Assembly (NCBI GenBank): GCA_002716725.1
Contig: PBBX01000009.1
Location: 26,312-65,895 of the forward strand
Length of the DNA stretch: 39,584 nt
DNA from: a bacterium
Lineage (GTDB): Bacteria; Margulisbacteria; Marinamargulisbacteria; GCA-2716485; GCA-002719695
Reading direction: 5' to 3'
Shown here piece after piece: positions 3,825 to 39,568 of this stretch (position 1 is the first letter of the stretch; each line of letters starts with the position of its first letter). A program made the translations under genes and the position numbers. The notes beneath the pieces were generated by a model. The model was not told the DNA's origin. It ran no database searches and was given only the letters and a program-made list of their open reading frames with translations.

Positions 3825-5640
3825 ACGTTTAATCCTCCTCATTACCCTTTTATTATTCTTTTCATCTTTATCCTATTCACAAGATACTCCTGATGAAACG
3901 GATTCAACCTATATAAAAACCTATATGCCTGATTTTTCTAAATCAGAAGCTCTTTCTAATTCATACTCTTTAAAAACATTTGTTATTGACTCTATTACAG
4001 TAACAGGAAATGTATTTGTTTCATCCAATACTATCCTTGCTTATTCATCACTGGCTATCGGAAACTCTGTTTCAGATCTTACCTTAGAAAGAGCTAAAAA
4101 AACTATAAAACGAAAAGGATCTTTTCGTGATGTTACTCTTAAATATGATGAACCCACTAAGCATGTTTCTATTACTGTTTCTGAAAACCCTATTATAACT
4201 GATATTATTTTTGATGGAGCAAGTATTTATACGCCTGAGGATCTTTTACCCTTAATGAAAACTCAACGTAATCAACCTGTTAACATGGCTCATGTTCGTG
4301 CCGATATTAAGACCATACAATCAAAGTATAAAGATGAGGGCTATATAGAGTCTAAAATTTATAATATTAAACGCCCTGAAACAAATAAGGGGCCTTTAAT
4401 TTTTAAAATTGCTGAAGGGGTTATTGATGATATTATTATTACTGGCAATATCAAAACCCAAGATTTTGTTATTTTAAGAGAATTAGATATTAGGCCTGGT
4501 GATATTATTAATCAACGAATCTTAGAAGATAATATTCGACAAATATTTAATTTAAACTACTTTAATAATATTATTCCAGATTTAACCTTAACAGAAGAAC
4601 CCCACCACTATAACTTAATTATTAACTTAGATGAAAAAGAAACAAGTGGCGCCTTTACACTAGGGGGCGGATTTCAACCTAATCGAGGATTTAATATATT
4701 CTCTGATTTATATTGGGATAACTTAATGGGGAAAGGTCAGCTTATTATGCTTAAAGGCAACTTTGGTCTTGGTGCGGTTAATTATGATAATAGAAGTAAT
4801 ACGTATCAATTTAAGTATCATAACCCTTGGGCCTTTGGTAAACGAAAATCATTTACACTTCGTGTCTGGTCAAGTTCCGGTAATTTTCAATCGTTTAATT
4901 TATTAAATCAACAGTATCGCTTTAAAAATTCATTTCGCCGAGGTATAGATACCGAATACGGGTTTCCTCATACCTATGACTTTAGAACATCCCACAAAAC
5001 AAAATATGAATCTATTCGTATTATTGATGATAATATACATTATTACTTGTACACATATACATTTAGAGCTACCTATGATAAACGAGATCAAAAGCTAAAC
5101 CCAACGACTGGTTATTTTGCTAATTTTTCTATTGAACAAGGGTTTAAGTTTCGTAATTCTGCTATAGATCTTACTCGTATTGATCTTGTTTTTCAGAAAC
5201 TCTTTTCTGTTTTTAATAAACAAGTTCTTTTTTTCCAATCTAAATTTGGTTTTATTAGAAGTCCCCAAATCAACAATGAATCTATCTTTGTTGATGAATA
5301 TTATTATGTCGGTGGAAGCCACACCGTTCGTGGATACCATGATAATGAGCCTTTTGGTTATGGCGATAAACAAATAATAGGAACCGTAGAATACCGCTAT
5401 GTTTTTTCTCCAACTGTTACGGCTTATTTATTTTCAGATGTTGGTTATGCGTCTAAAATTAAAAATAATGATAATGTCTTTATCCCTGCATCCTTTACCG
5501 ATATTTCTAACTATAAAGTTACAAAAGGGATTGGTGTTACGTTTGTTATAAATCCTATTGGCCCAATACAGTTACATTATGGTATTACACAAGAGAACCC
5601 GGAGGGGCGTGTTCAATTTAATTTGGGATATTCATTTTAA
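3811..5640 (+). CDS. bamA: Outer membrane assembly factor BamA (Omp85 family)
   Basis: This Omp85 protein inserts beta-barrel proteins into the outer membrane. A signal peptide (about residues 1-23) precedes roughly three POTRA domains (about 57-280) and a C-terminal 16-strand type barrel with the VRGY lid motif near residue 515 and a terminal phenylalanine. At 609 residues it is shorter than the five-POTRA proteobacterial BamA. TTG at 3808 is also possible, but GTG at 3811 sits at better distance from an AGG at 3800-3802. The gene overlaps secG and is followed by skp and lpxD, the classical outer membrane biogenesis neighbourhood. A TamA-like role is less likely given that context. Confidence 0.93.
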   Translation: MFIIKRLILLITLLLFFSSLSYSQDTPDETDSTYIKTYMPDFSKSEALSNSYSLKTFVIDSITVTGNVFVSSNTILAYSSLAIGNSVSDLTLERAKKTIKRKGSFRDVTLKYDEPTKHVSITVSENPIITDIIFDGASIYTPEDLLPLMKTQRNQPVNMAHVRADIKTIQSKYKDEGYIESKIYNIKRPETNKGPLIFKIAEGVIDDIIITGNIKTQDFVILRELDIRPGDIINQRILEDNIRQIFNLNYFNNIIPDLTLTEEPHHYNLIINLDEKETSGAFTLGGGFQPNRGFNIFSDLYWDNLMGKGQLIMLKGNFGLGAVNYDNRSNTYQFKYHNPWAFGKRKSFTLRVWSSSGNFQSFNLLNQQYRFKNSFRRGIDTEYGFPHTYDFRTSHKTKYESIRIIDDNIHYYLYTYTFRATYDKRDQKLNPTTGYFANFSIEQGFKFRNSAIDLTRIDLVFQKLFSVFNKQVLFFQSKFGFIRSPQINNESIFVDEYYYVGGSHTVRGYHDNEPFGYGDKQIIGTVEYRYVFSPTVTAYLFSDVGYASKIKNNDNVFIPASFTDISNYKVTKGIGVTFVINPIGPIQLHYGITQENPEGRVQFNLGYSF

Positions 5641-10101: not shown

Positions 10102-10602
10102 ATAAAACATTATATTATCAATGAAAAAATAAAAGCTGAAAAAGTTCGCTTAATTGACAACGAGGGAAATCAACTTGGGATACTGCCTATTTCAGAAGCA
10201 AGGAGGCTTTCTTTAGAAAAGAATTTAGATTTACTTCTTTTATCTGGTAATGCCTCTCCCCCTGTATGTAAAATTGTTGATTATGGTCAATTTATGTATC
10301 ATCAAAAGAAAAAGGAAAAGCAATCACGTCGATCTGGTCAAGTGATTAAAGAGCTTAAACTAAGTCACAAGATATCCAGCCATGACTATAATGTACGTAT
10401 TAACCAAGCTATTAAATTCCTTTCAAAGAAATATAAAGTTAAAGTAACCGTTGTTTTTAGAGGTAGAGAAATTGTTTTTAGAGATAAATTAGGAGTAGAA
10501 ATGGTAAATCGATTTTTAAATGATATAGAAGAATATGGCATTAAAGACAATGATATTGTAAAATCAGGTAGGAATTTAATGGTTATGGTGAATCCAAAAT
10601 GA
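10102..10602 (+). CDS. infC: Translation initiation factor IF-3 with ATA start
   Basis: IF-3 binds the 30S subunit, prevents premature 50S joining and rejects wrong start codons. The first ATG in frame (10294) would remove the whole N-terminal domain, but the conserved sequence begins upstream with the INEKIKAEKVRLID segment. A perfect AGGAGG at 10089-10094 lies 7 bases before ATA at 10102, giving a normal 166-residue protein. No ATG, GTG or TTG exists between the in-frame stop at 10084 and ATA. Rare ATT, ATC or ATA starts in infC are established as the basis of IF-3 autoregulation, so that control is expected here. Confidence 0.95.
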   Translation: MKHYIINEKIKAEKVRLIDNEGNQLGILPISEARRLSLEKNLDLLLLSGNASPPVCKIVDYGQFMYHQKKKEKQSRRSGQVIKELKLSHKISSHDYNVRINQAIKFLSKKYKVKVTVVFRGREIVFRDKLGVEMVNRFLNDIEEYGIKDNDIVKSGRNLMVMVNPK

Positions 10603-26939: not shown

Positions 26940-27788
26940 ATTAAATATTTAAGGAATGTTTCCGTTAAAACTTTAACATCATTTAAGCAAACTGGTATTA
27001 TTGACCATCTTTATGTTTTAGATACCAAACTAGATGTTCTAAATTTTTTTAATAATCACCCAAAATGCTTTGTTCTTGGGAAAGGCTCTAATAGTCTTAT
27101 TTTAGATTCAGCACTATCTATTCCATTTATAAAACTAGGGCCTTCTTTTCAAGCTATAACTGTTGATCATCATTTTTTACATGCAAAAGCAGGGGCTTCT
27201 GTTCCTCAACTGATGGCATTTATTCAAAAAAATGGTTTATCTGGATTAGAGTTTATGGCGGGGGTCCCTGCTTCATTAGGGGGCATGATTGCAATGAATT
27301 TTGGTTGTTGGGATATATGCATGAACGATATTGTTCATTCTGTCGATCTTTTTATTCCAAATCAAGGTTTTGTAACGTATAGTAATAAACAATGTCATTT
27401 TGGCTATCGAACTAGTATTTTTCAAACTATGGATTGCTTAATCATGGGTGCAACGTTATGTGTTTCTGTTTCTGATTCTATGCTTATTAAAAAAACCATC
27501 CACCGCTATGTTAATGAACGTTTAAAAAAACAACCCATGAGAATTGCTACATTTGGCTCTATTTTTAAAAATCCTTCTTTATCTCCAGCTGCTACTATCA
27601 TTGAAAACTCTGGTTTTAAGGGGTATCAATTACGTGAGGCTAAAATATCAGATAAACATGCAAATTTTATGGAAAATACCAATCATGCGTCCTCTCAAGA
27701 TGCCCTTGATTTAATTCATTTTATTCAACAAAACGTTTATGACAGTTTTAAAATCCAATTAAACCCAGAGGTACATATTTTTCAATGA
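26940..27788 (+). CDS. murB: UDP-N-acetylenolpyruvoylglucosamine reductase MurB with ATT start
   Basis: MurB is the FAD enzyme that makes UDP-MurNAc. The first ATG in frame (27213) would delete about 91 residues, including the FAD-binding GKGSNSLI segment. The frame is open upstream to a conserved N-terminus NVSVKTLTSFKQTG, with no ATG, GTG or TTG before it. ATT at 26940 follows AAGGTGA (26929-26935) by 4 bases and gives a 282-residue protein beginning (M)KYLRNVSVK. Other visible features are GLEFMAGVPASLGG, the catalytic serine in GSIFKNP and SDKHANFM. It overlaps ddl by 4 bases. Confidence 0.93.
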   Translation: MKYLRNVSVKTLTSFKQTGIIDHLYVLDTKLDVLNFFNNHPKCFVLGKGSNSLILDSALSIPFIKLGPSFQAITVDHHFLHAKAGASVPQLMAFIQKNGLSGLEFMAGVPASLGGMIAMNFGCWDICMNDIVHSVDLFIPNQGFVTYSNKQCHFGYRTSIFQTMDCLIMGATLCVSVSDSMLIKKTIHRYVNERLKKQPMRIATFGSIFKNPSLSPAATIIENSGFKGYQLREAKISDKHANFMENTNHASSQDALDLIHFIQQNVYDSFKIQLNPEVHIFQ

Positions 27789-35593: not shown

Positions 35594-36340
35594 TCACAGT
35601 AACTTAAAAAACTTTCTAGATGTTATTTCTAAAATCTGTTTTAGCTTTATTCTTTCTACTGGCTTTAGCTCTGCTATCTTATCTAAAATAAGCGATACAT
35701 TGGCCGGTTCATTATCGCCTTTAATCCCAATGGGATTCATATAAGGGCAATCTGTTTCTATCATGATATGCTCAATTGGAAGTTGCTTAATCGCATTAAT
35801 CACTTTGCCGCGTTTAGCAAGTGTAATCATTCCTGTAAAAGAAAAATAGGTGTTTTTATTAATCACGGATAAAGCAAATTCTGCTGATGATGAAAAACAA
35901 TGTAATACCTTTTTTACATCTTGATACTCCCTTAAAATAGCCTTCATATCATCATCTGATTCTCGACTATGAATAATTGCTGGTAACTTAAATTCTCTTG
36001 CTAAATCTAGTTGTTTTTTAAAGCATGCTATTTGTTCTTCTTTGGATGTGGCCATATGATAATAATCTAGTCCAATCTCGCCAACAGCGACATACTTGCC
36101 TGTAGATAACTCCTTTTTTAATGTTTTAAAATCTGAAAATCCAGCAACATCACAGGGATGAACCCCCATTGTAGCAGATATAAATTCAGGATATTGACCT
36201 GCTTGCTTTAATGCTTGTTTTCCTGATTTGATATCAATCGCAACATTAATAATATGGGTTACCCCTGCTTTTTTTGCCTTTTCTATAACATCTTTTAAAG
36301 GGTTTTTTAGATAAAATAAATGAGCATGTGTATCAATCAT
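35594..36340 (-). CDS. tatD: TatD-family metal-dependent hydrolase
   Basis: The 248-residue TIM-barrel protein has the metal-binding DTHAH (H5, H7), the GEIGLDYYH segment, HSRESDDD, LHCFS and the C-terminal ETDCPY motif. TatD proteins act as 3'-5' exonucleases or D-aminoacyl hydrolases, and the exact role here is open. It overlaps mltA by 8 bases and is the last gene of the tRNA-M23-bactofilin-rsmI-mltA-tatD run. Confidence 0.95.
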   Translation of the reverse strand: MIDTHAHLFYLKNPLKDVIEKAKKAGVTHIINVAIDIKSGKQALKQAGQYPEFISATMGVHPCDVAGFSDFKTLKKELSTGKYVAVGEIGLDYYHMATSKEEQIACFKKQLDLAREFKLPAIIHSRESDDDMKAILREYQDVKKVLHCFSSSAEFALSVINKNTYFSFTGMITLAKRGKVINAIKQLPIEHIMIETDCPYMNPIGIKGDNEPANVSLILDKIAELKPVERIKLKQILEITSRKFFKLL

Positions 36341-37361
36341 TGTTACGTAATCTTAACATAATTAATCGTGCGTTTTTATCTTTCATCAAACCAGCATCCT
36401 GCTCTACTTCTTTTTTAATCCCAAAAAATAAATCCCCCCGCTGAGGTCCTTTTATAGCCCCCCCTGTATCTTGTGCTATCACTAAGTTTCTAAATCGTTG
36501 AGGATTATTTGGGATTGCCGTTTCCAACCATATTAAACTATGAAAGGGGTAATATTGTTTATCGACTGCTAATGATTGCATCGCTTTTAATGCGGATCCA
36601 GCTGCGCCAGAAAAGGCTTGTTTTTTATCAAATTTAAAAAAAACATAAGACGGATTTTGAATAATAATTTCTTTTGCTCGTTTTAAATCATTTTTTAAAT
36701 ACTGCTTTATAAACGGTCCATTACGTTGTGCATGTGTAATGAGTTTCTTATCAAGCATATACTGGCTAATTGATTGATATCCATACCCATTTGATCCTGC
36801 ATATACTACTTTTTTAATATCTCCATCTGTAAATGTTAGTAATCCAGACCCTTGCATCATTAATAAATATACATCGATAGAATCTTGTAACCATGCCAGC
36901 TCTAACCCTTTATTGTGTAAGGCTCCGTCTAAAACAGCTTCATGAGAGTGATATCGTTGTTGTGCTGTACTTGGTTTTTGATAAATAGGAACCGGATATT
37001 GAGCAGACTGCTGGTAATCTGCTTTTGCATGAAAAATATGGTAGCCTGTTATTAAGTGTTCTTTTTGTGTATCGGTTATTAGCACTGGCTCATAATGTGT
37101 TTCTATAAATTTCTTTATCTTGGCATTATTGGTTTTATCTAATTGGGCTAATTCTTTTTTAAATGTTTCTGTCGTTTTTTTATGACTATCATTGGCTAAT
37201 CTTAAATAATCATTAAATTGATCTATAAGGGTTGCTTGTTTCCACCCTTTTAACTGATTAAATGTTAAACTATCATACTGTATATTTGTAGCTTGTACAT
37301 AATGTCCAACCATTAATAATCCAACAAAGAATAGGTTAATCTTGTTTATAGTTAAGAACAT
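36333..37361 (-). CDS. mltA: Membrane-bound lytic murein transglycosylase A
   Basis: MltA cleaves the MurNAc-GlcNAc bond of peptidoglycan to make 1,6-anhydro ends. The 342-residue protein has a hydrophobic signal segment (about 1-24), the MltA domain with MQGSGLLTFTDG (about 168-179) and the C-terminal 3D domain with AQDTGGAIKGPQRGD, which holds the catalytic aspartates. No lipobox cysteine is apparent, so it may be soluble or anchored by its signal helix. The start lies inside rsmI (26-base overlap), which suggests coupling. Confidence 0.92.
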   Translation of the reverse strand: MFLTINKINLFFVGLLMVGHYVQATNIQYDSLTFNQLKGWKQATLIDQFNDYLRLANDSHKKTTETFKKELAQLDKTNNAKIKKFIETHYEPVLITDTQKEHLITGYHIFHAKADYQQSAQYPVPIYQKPSTAQQRYHSHEAVLDGALHNKGLELAWLQDSIDVYLLMMQGSGLLTFTDGDIKKVVYAGSNGYGYQSISQYMLDKKLITHAQRNGPFIKQYLKNDLKRAKEIIIQNPSYVFFKFDKKQAFSGAAGSALKAMQSLAVDKQYYPFHSLIWLETAIPNNPQRFRNLVIAQDTGGAIKGPQRGDLFFGIKKEVEQDAGLMKDKNARLIMLRLRNND

Positions 37362-38160
37362 AGTTATACACTTCTTTTTTATTCCATCCTAACGTTTTTG
37401 CTAAAGTCCCGATTTGGTTTTGTGTCAGCCCAAGCTCACATGCTTGCTTTATAAAGGCTGTATTAAACTCTTTTTTTTCTTTTGGTAATGACACTATAAA
37501 GCACCATTCTCCCTTTAGAATATCATCGGTTAGTGTATCTAAAATTTGCGATGGATTTCCATATAAAATGCTTTCATAACATTTTGTCAGTTCTTTTCCT
37601 ACAACACAATAGGCATCCTTATAATAATTGTTTAGTAATGTAAGTGTTTTTTTGATGCGTTTTGGGGATTCAAAGCATACTATCGGGATTGATAATACAC
37701 CCATGTTCTTTAACATCGCTAATGCTTGGCCTTCTTTTTTTGGAAAAAACCCCCCAAATATATAATTATCAGCTCCAATTCCAGCTATCGATACTAAGGC
37801 TGATACGGCTGATGGGCCTGGAATAGGTGATATAATCACATTATGTTCTACTAATTTAGATATTGTATAACTTCCTGGATCTGAAATACCAGGTGTTCCT
37901 GCATCACTTACAATGGCAATATCATCTCCATCTTGAATGACTTGGTAAAGTGATTTAAAGCGAGTTGCTTCATTATGTTTTTCTAAACTAATTAATGATT
38001 TCTTGATGTTTAACTGTGTTAAGAGTAAGGCTGTTTTTCTAGTATCTTCTGCGGCAATTACACTTACTTGATTTAATATCGTTTCTAACCGCTTTGATAT
38101 ATCACTTAAATTTCCGATGGGGGTTGCACATACGTAACATGTCCCTACTTTTTTGCTAAT
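37336..38160 (-). CDS. rsmI: 16S rRNA (cytidine1402-2'-O)-methyltransferase RsmI with ATT start
   Basis: RsmI methylates the ribose of C1402 in the ribosomal decoding site. The first canonical start in frame (GTG 37839) would cut off 107 residues, including the ATPIGNLSDI and AEDTRKTALLL motifs that are clearly encoded upstream. An in-frame TGA in the bactofilin gene bounds the ORF, and no ATG, GTG or TTG lies between. ATT at 38160 has GAAGGA (38174-38169) 8 bases before it and gives 274 residues beginning (M)SKKVGTCYV. The SDAGTPGISDPG and PIPGPSA segments confirm the family. It overlaps the bactofilin gene by 16 bases. Confidence 0.93.
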   Translation of the reverse strand: MSKKVGTCYVCATPIGNLSDISKRLETILNQVSVIAAEDTRKTALLLTQLNIKKSLISLEKHNEATRFKSLYQVIQDGDDIAIVSDAGTPGISDPGSYTISKLVEHNVIISPIPGPSAVSALVSIAGIGADNYIFGGFFPKKEGQALAMLKNMGVLSIPIVCFESPKRIKKTLTLLNNYYKDAYCVVGKELTKCYESILYGNPSQILDTLTDDILKGEWCFIVSLPKEKKEFNTAFIKQACELGLTQNQIGTLAKTLGWNKKEVYNYVLNYKQD

Positions 38161-38537
38161 TGGAATGATCCTTCATAAGCATTTTTTGCAGAAATAATGT
38201 CCATATTTACTTTTCCTTTATAAACACCCCCTTCATCAATTTTTAATTCATCACCAGCAATATCTCCATATACACGCCCTGTCTTTAATATTTGTAAACT
38301 CTTGATGGCCTCAATATTTCCAATTACCTCCCCTGCTACTATAACATCCTTTGCAAATAAGGATGCTTTTACTTTGCTTTTTTGACCAATATAAATTTCA
38401 CCTTGTGAATTAATTTCTCCCTCAAAGACACCTTCTATCCGAATTGATCTTTGGGAGTGCAAAATCCCTTTTACGGATGTATCTTCTCCAACTACTGTAT
38501 TTACTAAATCTGTTCGATATTTTTTTTGATTCTTCAT
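38145..38537 (-). CDS. Bactofilin
   Basis: Bactofilins form nucleotide-free filaments that place wall enzymes and shape the cell. The 130-residue protein (ATG 38537; TTG at 38585 would extend it into the M23 gene) has a short charged N-terminus and the repeated right-handed beta-helix domain (about 14-115), with GVFEGEI, GEIYIGQKSKVKA and GRVYGDI turns. It lies between the M23 peptidase and rsmI. Bactofilin next to a LytM/M23 gene is an established pair, for example in Helicobacter, and suggests joint action in cell shape. Confidence 0.93.
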   Translation of the reverse strand: MKNQKKYRTDLVNTVVGEDTSVKGILHSQRSIRIEGVFEGEINSQGEIYIGQKSKVKASLFAKDVIVAGEVIGNIEAIKSLQILKTGRVYGDIAGDELKIDEGGVYKGKVNMDIISAKNAYEGSFQLAKK

Positions 38538-38550
38538 AGTTAAATTTACA

Positions 38551-39480
38551 CTACCATATTCGTCTTCGTGCTGTAAACATATCAAGATCTAAAAATGCAA
38601 TTGGGTTTAACCTCTGATTCCACTTGCGTATCTCATAATGTAAATGAGGCCCTGTTGATAGCCCTGTTGATCCCACTTGTGCAATGACTTGTCCTTTTTT
38701 TACAATTTCTTTTCTTTTTACTAAAATTTGAGAACAATGGGCATAATAGGTGCGATACCCATAACTATGATTGACCACAACAACATATCCAAATGTTCGA
38801 GACCATCCTGCATACTCTACAATCCCATCAGCTGTAACGTGAATAGGAGCTCCTGTCCATGATGCAACATCAATTCCTTTATGAAACCGTCTTTTCTTTG
38901 AAATAGGATGTCGTCTCCATCCATATCGTGACATAATCCTTCCATATAAGGGCCGAATAGACGGAGTTGCATCAAAACGTGCGGTCATTAAATGCGTTCT
39001 TTTTAAATGAATACTATATTTTTCATTAAATTCATCTACATAATGCTTCATCAAATCAACCAGTTTAAACGCACGTTCTTCTTTGTTTTCTGCATTACTT
39101 TCTAAAGACTTTAATTCTTTTTTAAATCGTTTAATATTTTTTTTTCTTAGTTTTTTTTTTACCGTTGCTTTTCCTAGTAATAATTCTAATCGCTCTTCCT
39201 TTTCAATTAAGTCCATTATTTCACTTTTTATAAAATCAATTTCCTCATTGAGTACTTTTATTGCTTCTGTTTTTTGAGAGTAATCTTTCTTTAACTTATT
39301 ATAGGCAGCTTGCTGAATATTTACATTGTATGATAGGTATATCCCAACACCTAATGCTATAAGGGTCCCAATGATACCAATGCTTATTAACTGCACTTTA
39401 GCCTGACTAATGGTTAGGGTATAACTTTTACCTGAATTATTTTTAAAAATTACAACTGAAATTGTCTTCTCTTTACTCAT
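38551..39480 (-). CDS. M23 (LytM) peptidase with transmembrane helix and coiled coil
   Basis: I start at ATG 39480, giving 309 residues. ATG 39492 lies at the last base of the tRNA and is unlikely. The protein has a membrane helix (about 25-48), a coiled coil (about 52-130) and a C-terminal LytM domain (about 190-300) with the zinc motifs HKGIDVA (about 201-207) and GPHLHYE (about 278-284), and a further HC in the middle strand. It is probably an endopeptidase or a regulator of amidases at the inner membrane face of the wall. All catalytic residues are present, so activity is likely. Its partner is the following bactofilin. Confidence 0.95.
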
Positions 39481-39491
39481 TAATCTACTCA

Positions 39492-39568
39492 TGGTCGGGG
39501 CGACTGGATTTGAACCAACGACCTCTAGTACCCCATACTAGTGCGCTACCGGGCTGCGCCACGCCCCG
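39492..39568 (-). tRNA. tRNA-Pro (anticodon GGG)
   Basis: The 77-base minus-strand sequence folds as a full cloverleaf: acceptor CGGGGCG/CGCCCCG, D arm GCGC/GCGC, anticodon stem CTAGT/ACTAG with the seven-base loop ATGGGGT, and T loop TTCAAAT. CCA is encoded. The C1-G72 pair suits proline. The T stem has two G-U wobbles. It decodes CCC and CCU. It sits directly before the M23 gene. Confidence 0.96.

Follow-up and report, generated by a model that had tools for sequence, protein, structure and literature searches.

Where does translation of rsmI begin when its frame offers no canonical codon until inside the conserved domain, and why would such a start be retained? The question is raised by a minus-strand gene in a 39,584-nucleotide stretch of a bacterial draft genome, the whole of which is called here the window. 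The gene stands in a tightly packed minus-strand row (35594-39492) of M23 peptidase, bactofilin, rsmI, MltA/3D and tatD genes with overlapping ends; the overlap between rsmI and the MltA-like gene is 26 nt.

The rsmI frame and its product

The frame at 37336-38160 (minus strand, 274 aa counted from an ATT codon) encodes a 16S rRNA (cytidine1402-2'-O)-methyltransferase. Its product matches TIGR00096 from residue 9 onwards with 208.9 bits, above the cut-off of 167.9 (E 9e-62), is also recovered by PF00590 in the domain search, and aligns with the RsmI chains 9pzg and 5hw4 of the PDB beginning at residues 5-6. By family score the product is a full RsmI, predicted to carry out 2'-O-methylation of C1402. 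The 16S decoding-site sequence was searched for in the draft and was not found.

As read from the sequence, the frame is closed upstream by an in-frame TGA (38175-38173, minus strand) and runs TGA AGG ATC ATT CCA ATT (38160-38158) AGC AAA AAA GTA GGG ACA TGT, followed by TAC GTA TGT GCA ACC CCC ATC GGA AAT TTA and so on to the stop at 37336. Only four codons (AGG ATC ATT CCA) separate the TGA from the ATT at 38160. No ATG, GTG or TTG occurs in frame before a GTG at 37839-37837 (minus strand), which lies inside the conserved domain, 107 codons past that ATT. The original prediction, which placed 107 codons of conserved sequence ahead of the first canonical start in a frame bounded by an in-frame TGA, was exact in both coordinates and count.

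Given that the N-terminal domain of E. coli RsmI spans Gly12 to Gly121 (PMC5053481), a start at GTG 37839 would delete this domain. TPIGN, SDAGTP, PGPSA, GKELTK and KGEW are present along with a complete N-terminal domain only if translation starts before that codon. In the long ORFs of the genome 6.0% of sense codons are canonical start codons, so that the chance of meeting 107 codons devoid of them is low (p about 0.0014). When the 1.26-Mb draft was scanned in full for coding potential, rsmI came out strongest among the full-length genes of identified family that have coding sequence before their first canonical start.

The proposed ATT start site and the bactofilin junction

The proposed start codon, the ATT at 38158-38160 (minus strand), is alone among the ATH codons of the open stretch in having good Shine-Dalgarno (SD) spacing. 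The predicted GAAGGA was found where expected, at 38169-38174 (minus strand), 8 nt before the ATT. For the 585 genes whose canonical start could be aligned, the start codon most often lies 12-14 nt from the first base of the aligned AAGGAGGTG; in rsmI the same distance to the ATT is 13 nt, that is, at the mode of the genome, and the SD pairing is an ordinary 5-nt AAGGA.

The site lies within the end of the upstream gene, a bactofilin (PF04519, E 1.6e-24) whose ORF, counted from a TTG, occupies 38145-38585 of the minus strand and covers the first 16 nt of rsmI before ending at a TAG (38147-38145). Its last codons are TAT GAA GGA TCA TTC CAA TTA GCA AAA AAG TAG: GAAGGA belongs to its Tyr-Glu-Gly codons, the rsmI ATT is read out of CAA TTA in the -1 frame, and the first base of the TAG falls 13 nt past the first base of the ATT. 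Since they are located inside conserved bactofilin codons, the letters of both the SD and the ATT are partly by-products of bactofilin coding.

The codon AUU 38160 is very probably the start of rsmI. From the open frame, the absent canonical start, the conserved codon and spacing, and the rarity of such genes in the genome, we infer that ribosomes start there.

Conservation of the proposed start among relatives

Within the class, rsmI was found in 20 genomes, and the order bactofilin-rsmI is retained in 18 of them. The arrangement of AAGG or AGGG, then exactly 9 nt, then an in-frame ATT occurs in eight class genomes representing five genera and four families: the window genome and two others of its genus (G000-G002), one of a different genus in the same family (G003), one of another family of the order (G004), and three of two more families of the class (G007, G011 and G015). 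G001 and G002, whose RsmI is 71-75% identical, share an identical stretch, GGATCATTCCAATTAGC, and the same ATT. In G003, G004, G007, G011 and G015 the spacer letters between AAGG and ATT differ, and across the five genera RsmI identity is 41-46%. A canonical alternative is absent in seven of these eight genomes, only G007 having one (a GTG) before the conserved region.

The other class genomes are more varied. In G018 an rsmI ATT shares letters with the bactofilin stop, in G008 rsmI has only ATC/ATT, lacking an SD, and in the remaining 10 it has ATG, GTG or TTG, overlapping the bactofilin stop in several. No canonical rsmI start is thus available in 9 of the 20. The comparison with close relatives that the original prediction had called for bears it out, the ATT being kept in the genus, in the sister genus and in the order relative where rsmI was found. 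A canonical start at a different position is likewise absent from these same relatives, and is present in distant families. Association of AAGG-N9-ATT with the lack of a canonical start within the class (Fisher p = 0.015 by genome, 0.09 by genus) is by itself not strong, and the class tree is poorly supported at its deep nodes. In G014, bactofilin is followed by an apparent tatD with no rsmI between, yet the AAGG-N9-ATT letters are present, so these letters can arise from bactofilin coding alone. Apparent tatD directly after bactofilin was seen at two loci, L342 (G009) and L351 (G014), both in incomplete genomes that yielded no rsmI.

Outside the class the pattern is uniform. A canonical start precedes the conserved motif in 79 of 80 named rsmI loci from diverse phyla, and the sole exception, MED721, belongs to the same family as the window genome and starts rsmI at ATT. 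In the rest of the phylum all 42 genes examined (9 + 33) have a canonical start; the contrast between 9/20 in the class and 0/42 elsewhere in the phylum gives a Fisher p of 8e-6, uncorrected for shared ancestry. At five loci from other classes of the phylum (L024, L025 and L027-L029) bactofilin adjoins rsmI in differing relative frames, and the rsmI starts are canonical.

Rarity of non-canonical starts in the genome

The draft genome, reassembled from pieces (1.257 Mb, 32.8% G+C), was compared with 1.18 Mb of G002. Among 712 orthologue pairs, the clear cases of conserved coding before every canonical start were murB, rsmI and infC, with 82, 69 and 59 conserved codons, respectively, preceding the canonical start in both genomes. 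A second scan, for an aligned ATT, ATA or ATC with an SD in both genomes, placed the same three genes on top, far above the rest. All three lie inside the window. The detection power of the orthologue-pair method for such genes is about 0.29-0.36, and for this reason the genome may hold roughly ten genes with starts of this kind. A genome-wide relaxed start code is rejected, three clear cases having emerged from 712 pairs at about 29-36% detection.

The murB gene (26940-27788, plus strand; TIGR00179 above cut-off) starts at an ATT (26940-26942) located 10 nt past the murC stop, with an SD, AAGGTGA, that overlaps this stop; 91 codons precede the first canonical codon, at 27213. This ATT is kept in the three genus genomes (3/3), and several other class members appear, from their sequences, to start murB at ATT, ATA or ATC. 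The infC gene, encoding IF3 (10102-10602, plus strand; TIGR00168 above cut-off), starts at ATA with AGGAGG upstream, and in the class genomes checked it starts at ATA, ATT or ATC, as expected for infC. The partner methylase gene rsmH is present and has an ordinary ATG start.

A fourth hit of the census, which we take to be a BatD-like protein, was discarded as its ATG is split from its frame by a poly-T run and is not a non-canonical start. In both G000 (C35:13296-15587, plus strand) and G002 (C14:14706-17000, plus strand) a protein gene has 11-15 consecutive T after its ATG, past which the main frame lies one base out of register; this could reflect either transcription slippage at the homopolymer or a common sequencing error. 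The other high scorers had an aligned Met or were apparent shadow frames. Similarly, a recR-like gene at about 4680-5250 of the reverse-complemented G000 C8 (minus strand) is broken into two frames at nine consecutive A, by either slippage or homopolymer error.

Alternative explanations

Other near-cognate codons share the frame with ATT 38160, namely ATC 38169, ATT 38166 and, downstream, e.g. GTA 38148. Initiation at one of them is improbable: ATC 38169 overlaps the SD, ATT 38166 is only 2 nt from it, and genome-typical spacing together with recurrence in other genera belongs to ATT 38160 only. Comparably improbable is a bactofilin-RsmI fusion produced by -1 frameshifting where A_AAA_AAG adjoins the bactofilin TAG. 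Relative to bactofilin, rsmI is indeed read in the -1 frame, with this heptamer directly before the TAG and GAAGGA 14 nt upstream, a layout that resembles the dnaX frameshift arrangement, and A-AAR-TAG is kept in all three genus members (A-AAA-TAG in G007), making a P-site slip conceivable. However, the heptamer is not conserved in the genus (G_AAA_AAA in G002, C_AAA_AAG in G001), A_AAA_AAG being found only in the genome of the window; the junctions of G003, G004, G007, G011 and G015, all with the ATT, contain no X_XXY_YYZ heptamer, and the ATT with its SD suits ordinary initiation. A start at the out-of-frame ATG 38140 followed by a shift was discarded, as neither G001 nor G002 has an ATG at the matching place. 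Assembly or sequencing error, or decay of rsmI, might be suspected in a draft metagenome assembly in which some other genes, such as recR, are broken at homopolymers. Yet three genomes agree, neither the reading frame nor the motifs are disrupted, and the orthologue with 75% identity has no break in its frame. Misassembly, which had been named at the outset as grounds for refuting the start, is ruled out by the two same-genus genomes (71-75% protein identity) that carry the same ATT, and the relatives leave error or decay a negligible probability.

The strongest rival, and a serious one, accepts the AUU start and denies it a selected role: AUU would be merely a weak near-cognate codon, tolerated by drift behind the SD-like Glu-Gly pair of bactofilin and coupled to that gene, sufficient for a small need of RsmI and subject neither to selected feedback nor to IF3 control. 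This account is plausible, if short of probable. The murB gene shows the same feature and has no link to initiation, the rsmI start codons vary within the class, about half being canonical, and the letters of the site follow bactofilin codons to the point that G014 carries them without rsmI; the ATT itself comes from a bactofilin NNA-TTA (x-Leu), common anyway in AT-rich genomes. Against it, retention of the ATT over five genera at the low RsmI identity given above indicates more than recent drift, such rsmI starts are absent outside the class, and TTG or GTG usually suffice for the tuning of weak starts.

Initiation fidelity and a possible feedback

A connection between RsmI and start-codon fidelity, more direct than the one invoked in the original prediction, is published for E. 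coli: according to the summary of Kimura & Suzuki 2010 given in a 2026 preprint, loss of MraW/RsmH or of RsmI increases mis-initiation at AUU (PMC13317604). A review concurs in tying m4C/m4Cm1402 to non-AUG initiation (PMC7694415), and another relates the non-AUG effect particularly to the missing N4 methyl group (PMC7379855), which is not the group that RsmI itself adds. IF3 represses non-canonical starts, infC and sigR being the measured cases (PMC5472188), and in poor medium the conserved AUU/AUA starts of S. aureus reach about 10% of the expression obtained with AUG (PMC13009471).

Under the reading of AUU 38160 as a start gated by initiation fidelity, rsmI would be translated from this codon using the GAAGGA of the bactofilin Glu-Gly codons as SD, and its initiation would be closely coupled to bactofilin, whose stop starts 13 nt past the first AUU base. 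Expression would be weak, its level set by the strictness of the 30S subunit against non-AUG codons. That AUU serves as such a weak, fidelity-gated start is probable, the low and IF3-gated output being deduced by analogy with the measured cases. One step further, initiation at AUU is suppressed by C1402 methylation in E. coli, and if this also applies to the present class, loss of the RsmI mark would raise rsmI translation and the enzyme would restrain its own synthesis, in a homeostatic loop parallel to the action of IF3 on infC. That this loop is the reason for retention of the codon is a tentative proposal. The conservation of an AUU-started rsmI across several families suggests, short of proof, that RsmI restrains its own output.

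The feedback between initiation accuracy and ribosome methylation originally envisaged therefore stands in part. It gains from AUU being the best-supported start, from its retention in close relatives and from the published link between RsmI and fidelity; a loop specific to RsmI is disfavored by murB, by the canonical half of the class and by bactofilin coding. A wider version is a little more doubtful still: unmethylated 30S subunits would initiate better at AUU, rsmI would be translated until C1402 is methylated, and together with the ATA of infC and the AUU of murB it would form a small set of genes reading out initiation fidelity. If true, this set would connect ribosome maturation to IF3 and to a cell-wall step, raising the question of whether the C1402 methyl mark sets the level of its own enzyme.

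Comparison with known systems

Very few genes are known to have conserved AUU, AUA or AUC starts, and such genes are overlooked or shortened by gene finders; rsmI and murB of this class will thus probably appear in annotations as truncated or absent. The E. coli rsmI gene begins at a canonical codon, unlike that of the window. The enzymes themselves belong to the same family and have the same domains, E. coli RsmI being the C1402 2'-O-methylase (PMC5053481). Among genes with unusual starts, sigR of Streptomyces, which begins with GTC (PMC5472188), resembles rsmI as a protein gene with a conserved non-canonical start that gene finders missed; it differs in the codon and in that its repression by IF3 was measured, that of rsmI being deduced. 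Conserved near-cognate starts with an SD are also found in cvfC1 (AUU) and ccpN (AUA) of S. aureus (PMC13009471), although these have extended SD pairing and ribosome-profiling support, whereas rsmI is known from sequence and has an ordinary AAGGA.

The closest parallel is infC, the gene for IF3 (PMC5472188), which shares with rsmI a near-cognate start with an SD, its retention across relatives, and a product that tightens start-codon selection. In contrast to infC, RsmI acts via C1402 methylation of 16S rRNA, its SD lies inside the upstream gene, its start is restricted to one class, and its autoregulation is conjectural. A regulatory loop for rsmI would be a possible, though unproven, new element beyond the known infC-type starts. 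That rsmI joins the infC-type genes with conserved non-canonical starts is well supported by its lack of an early ATG, GTG or TTG, its normal SD spacing and the retention of the codon in eight genomes; it would then be, after IF3, the second start-codon-fidelity factor whose gene begins with a codon that the factor suppresses.
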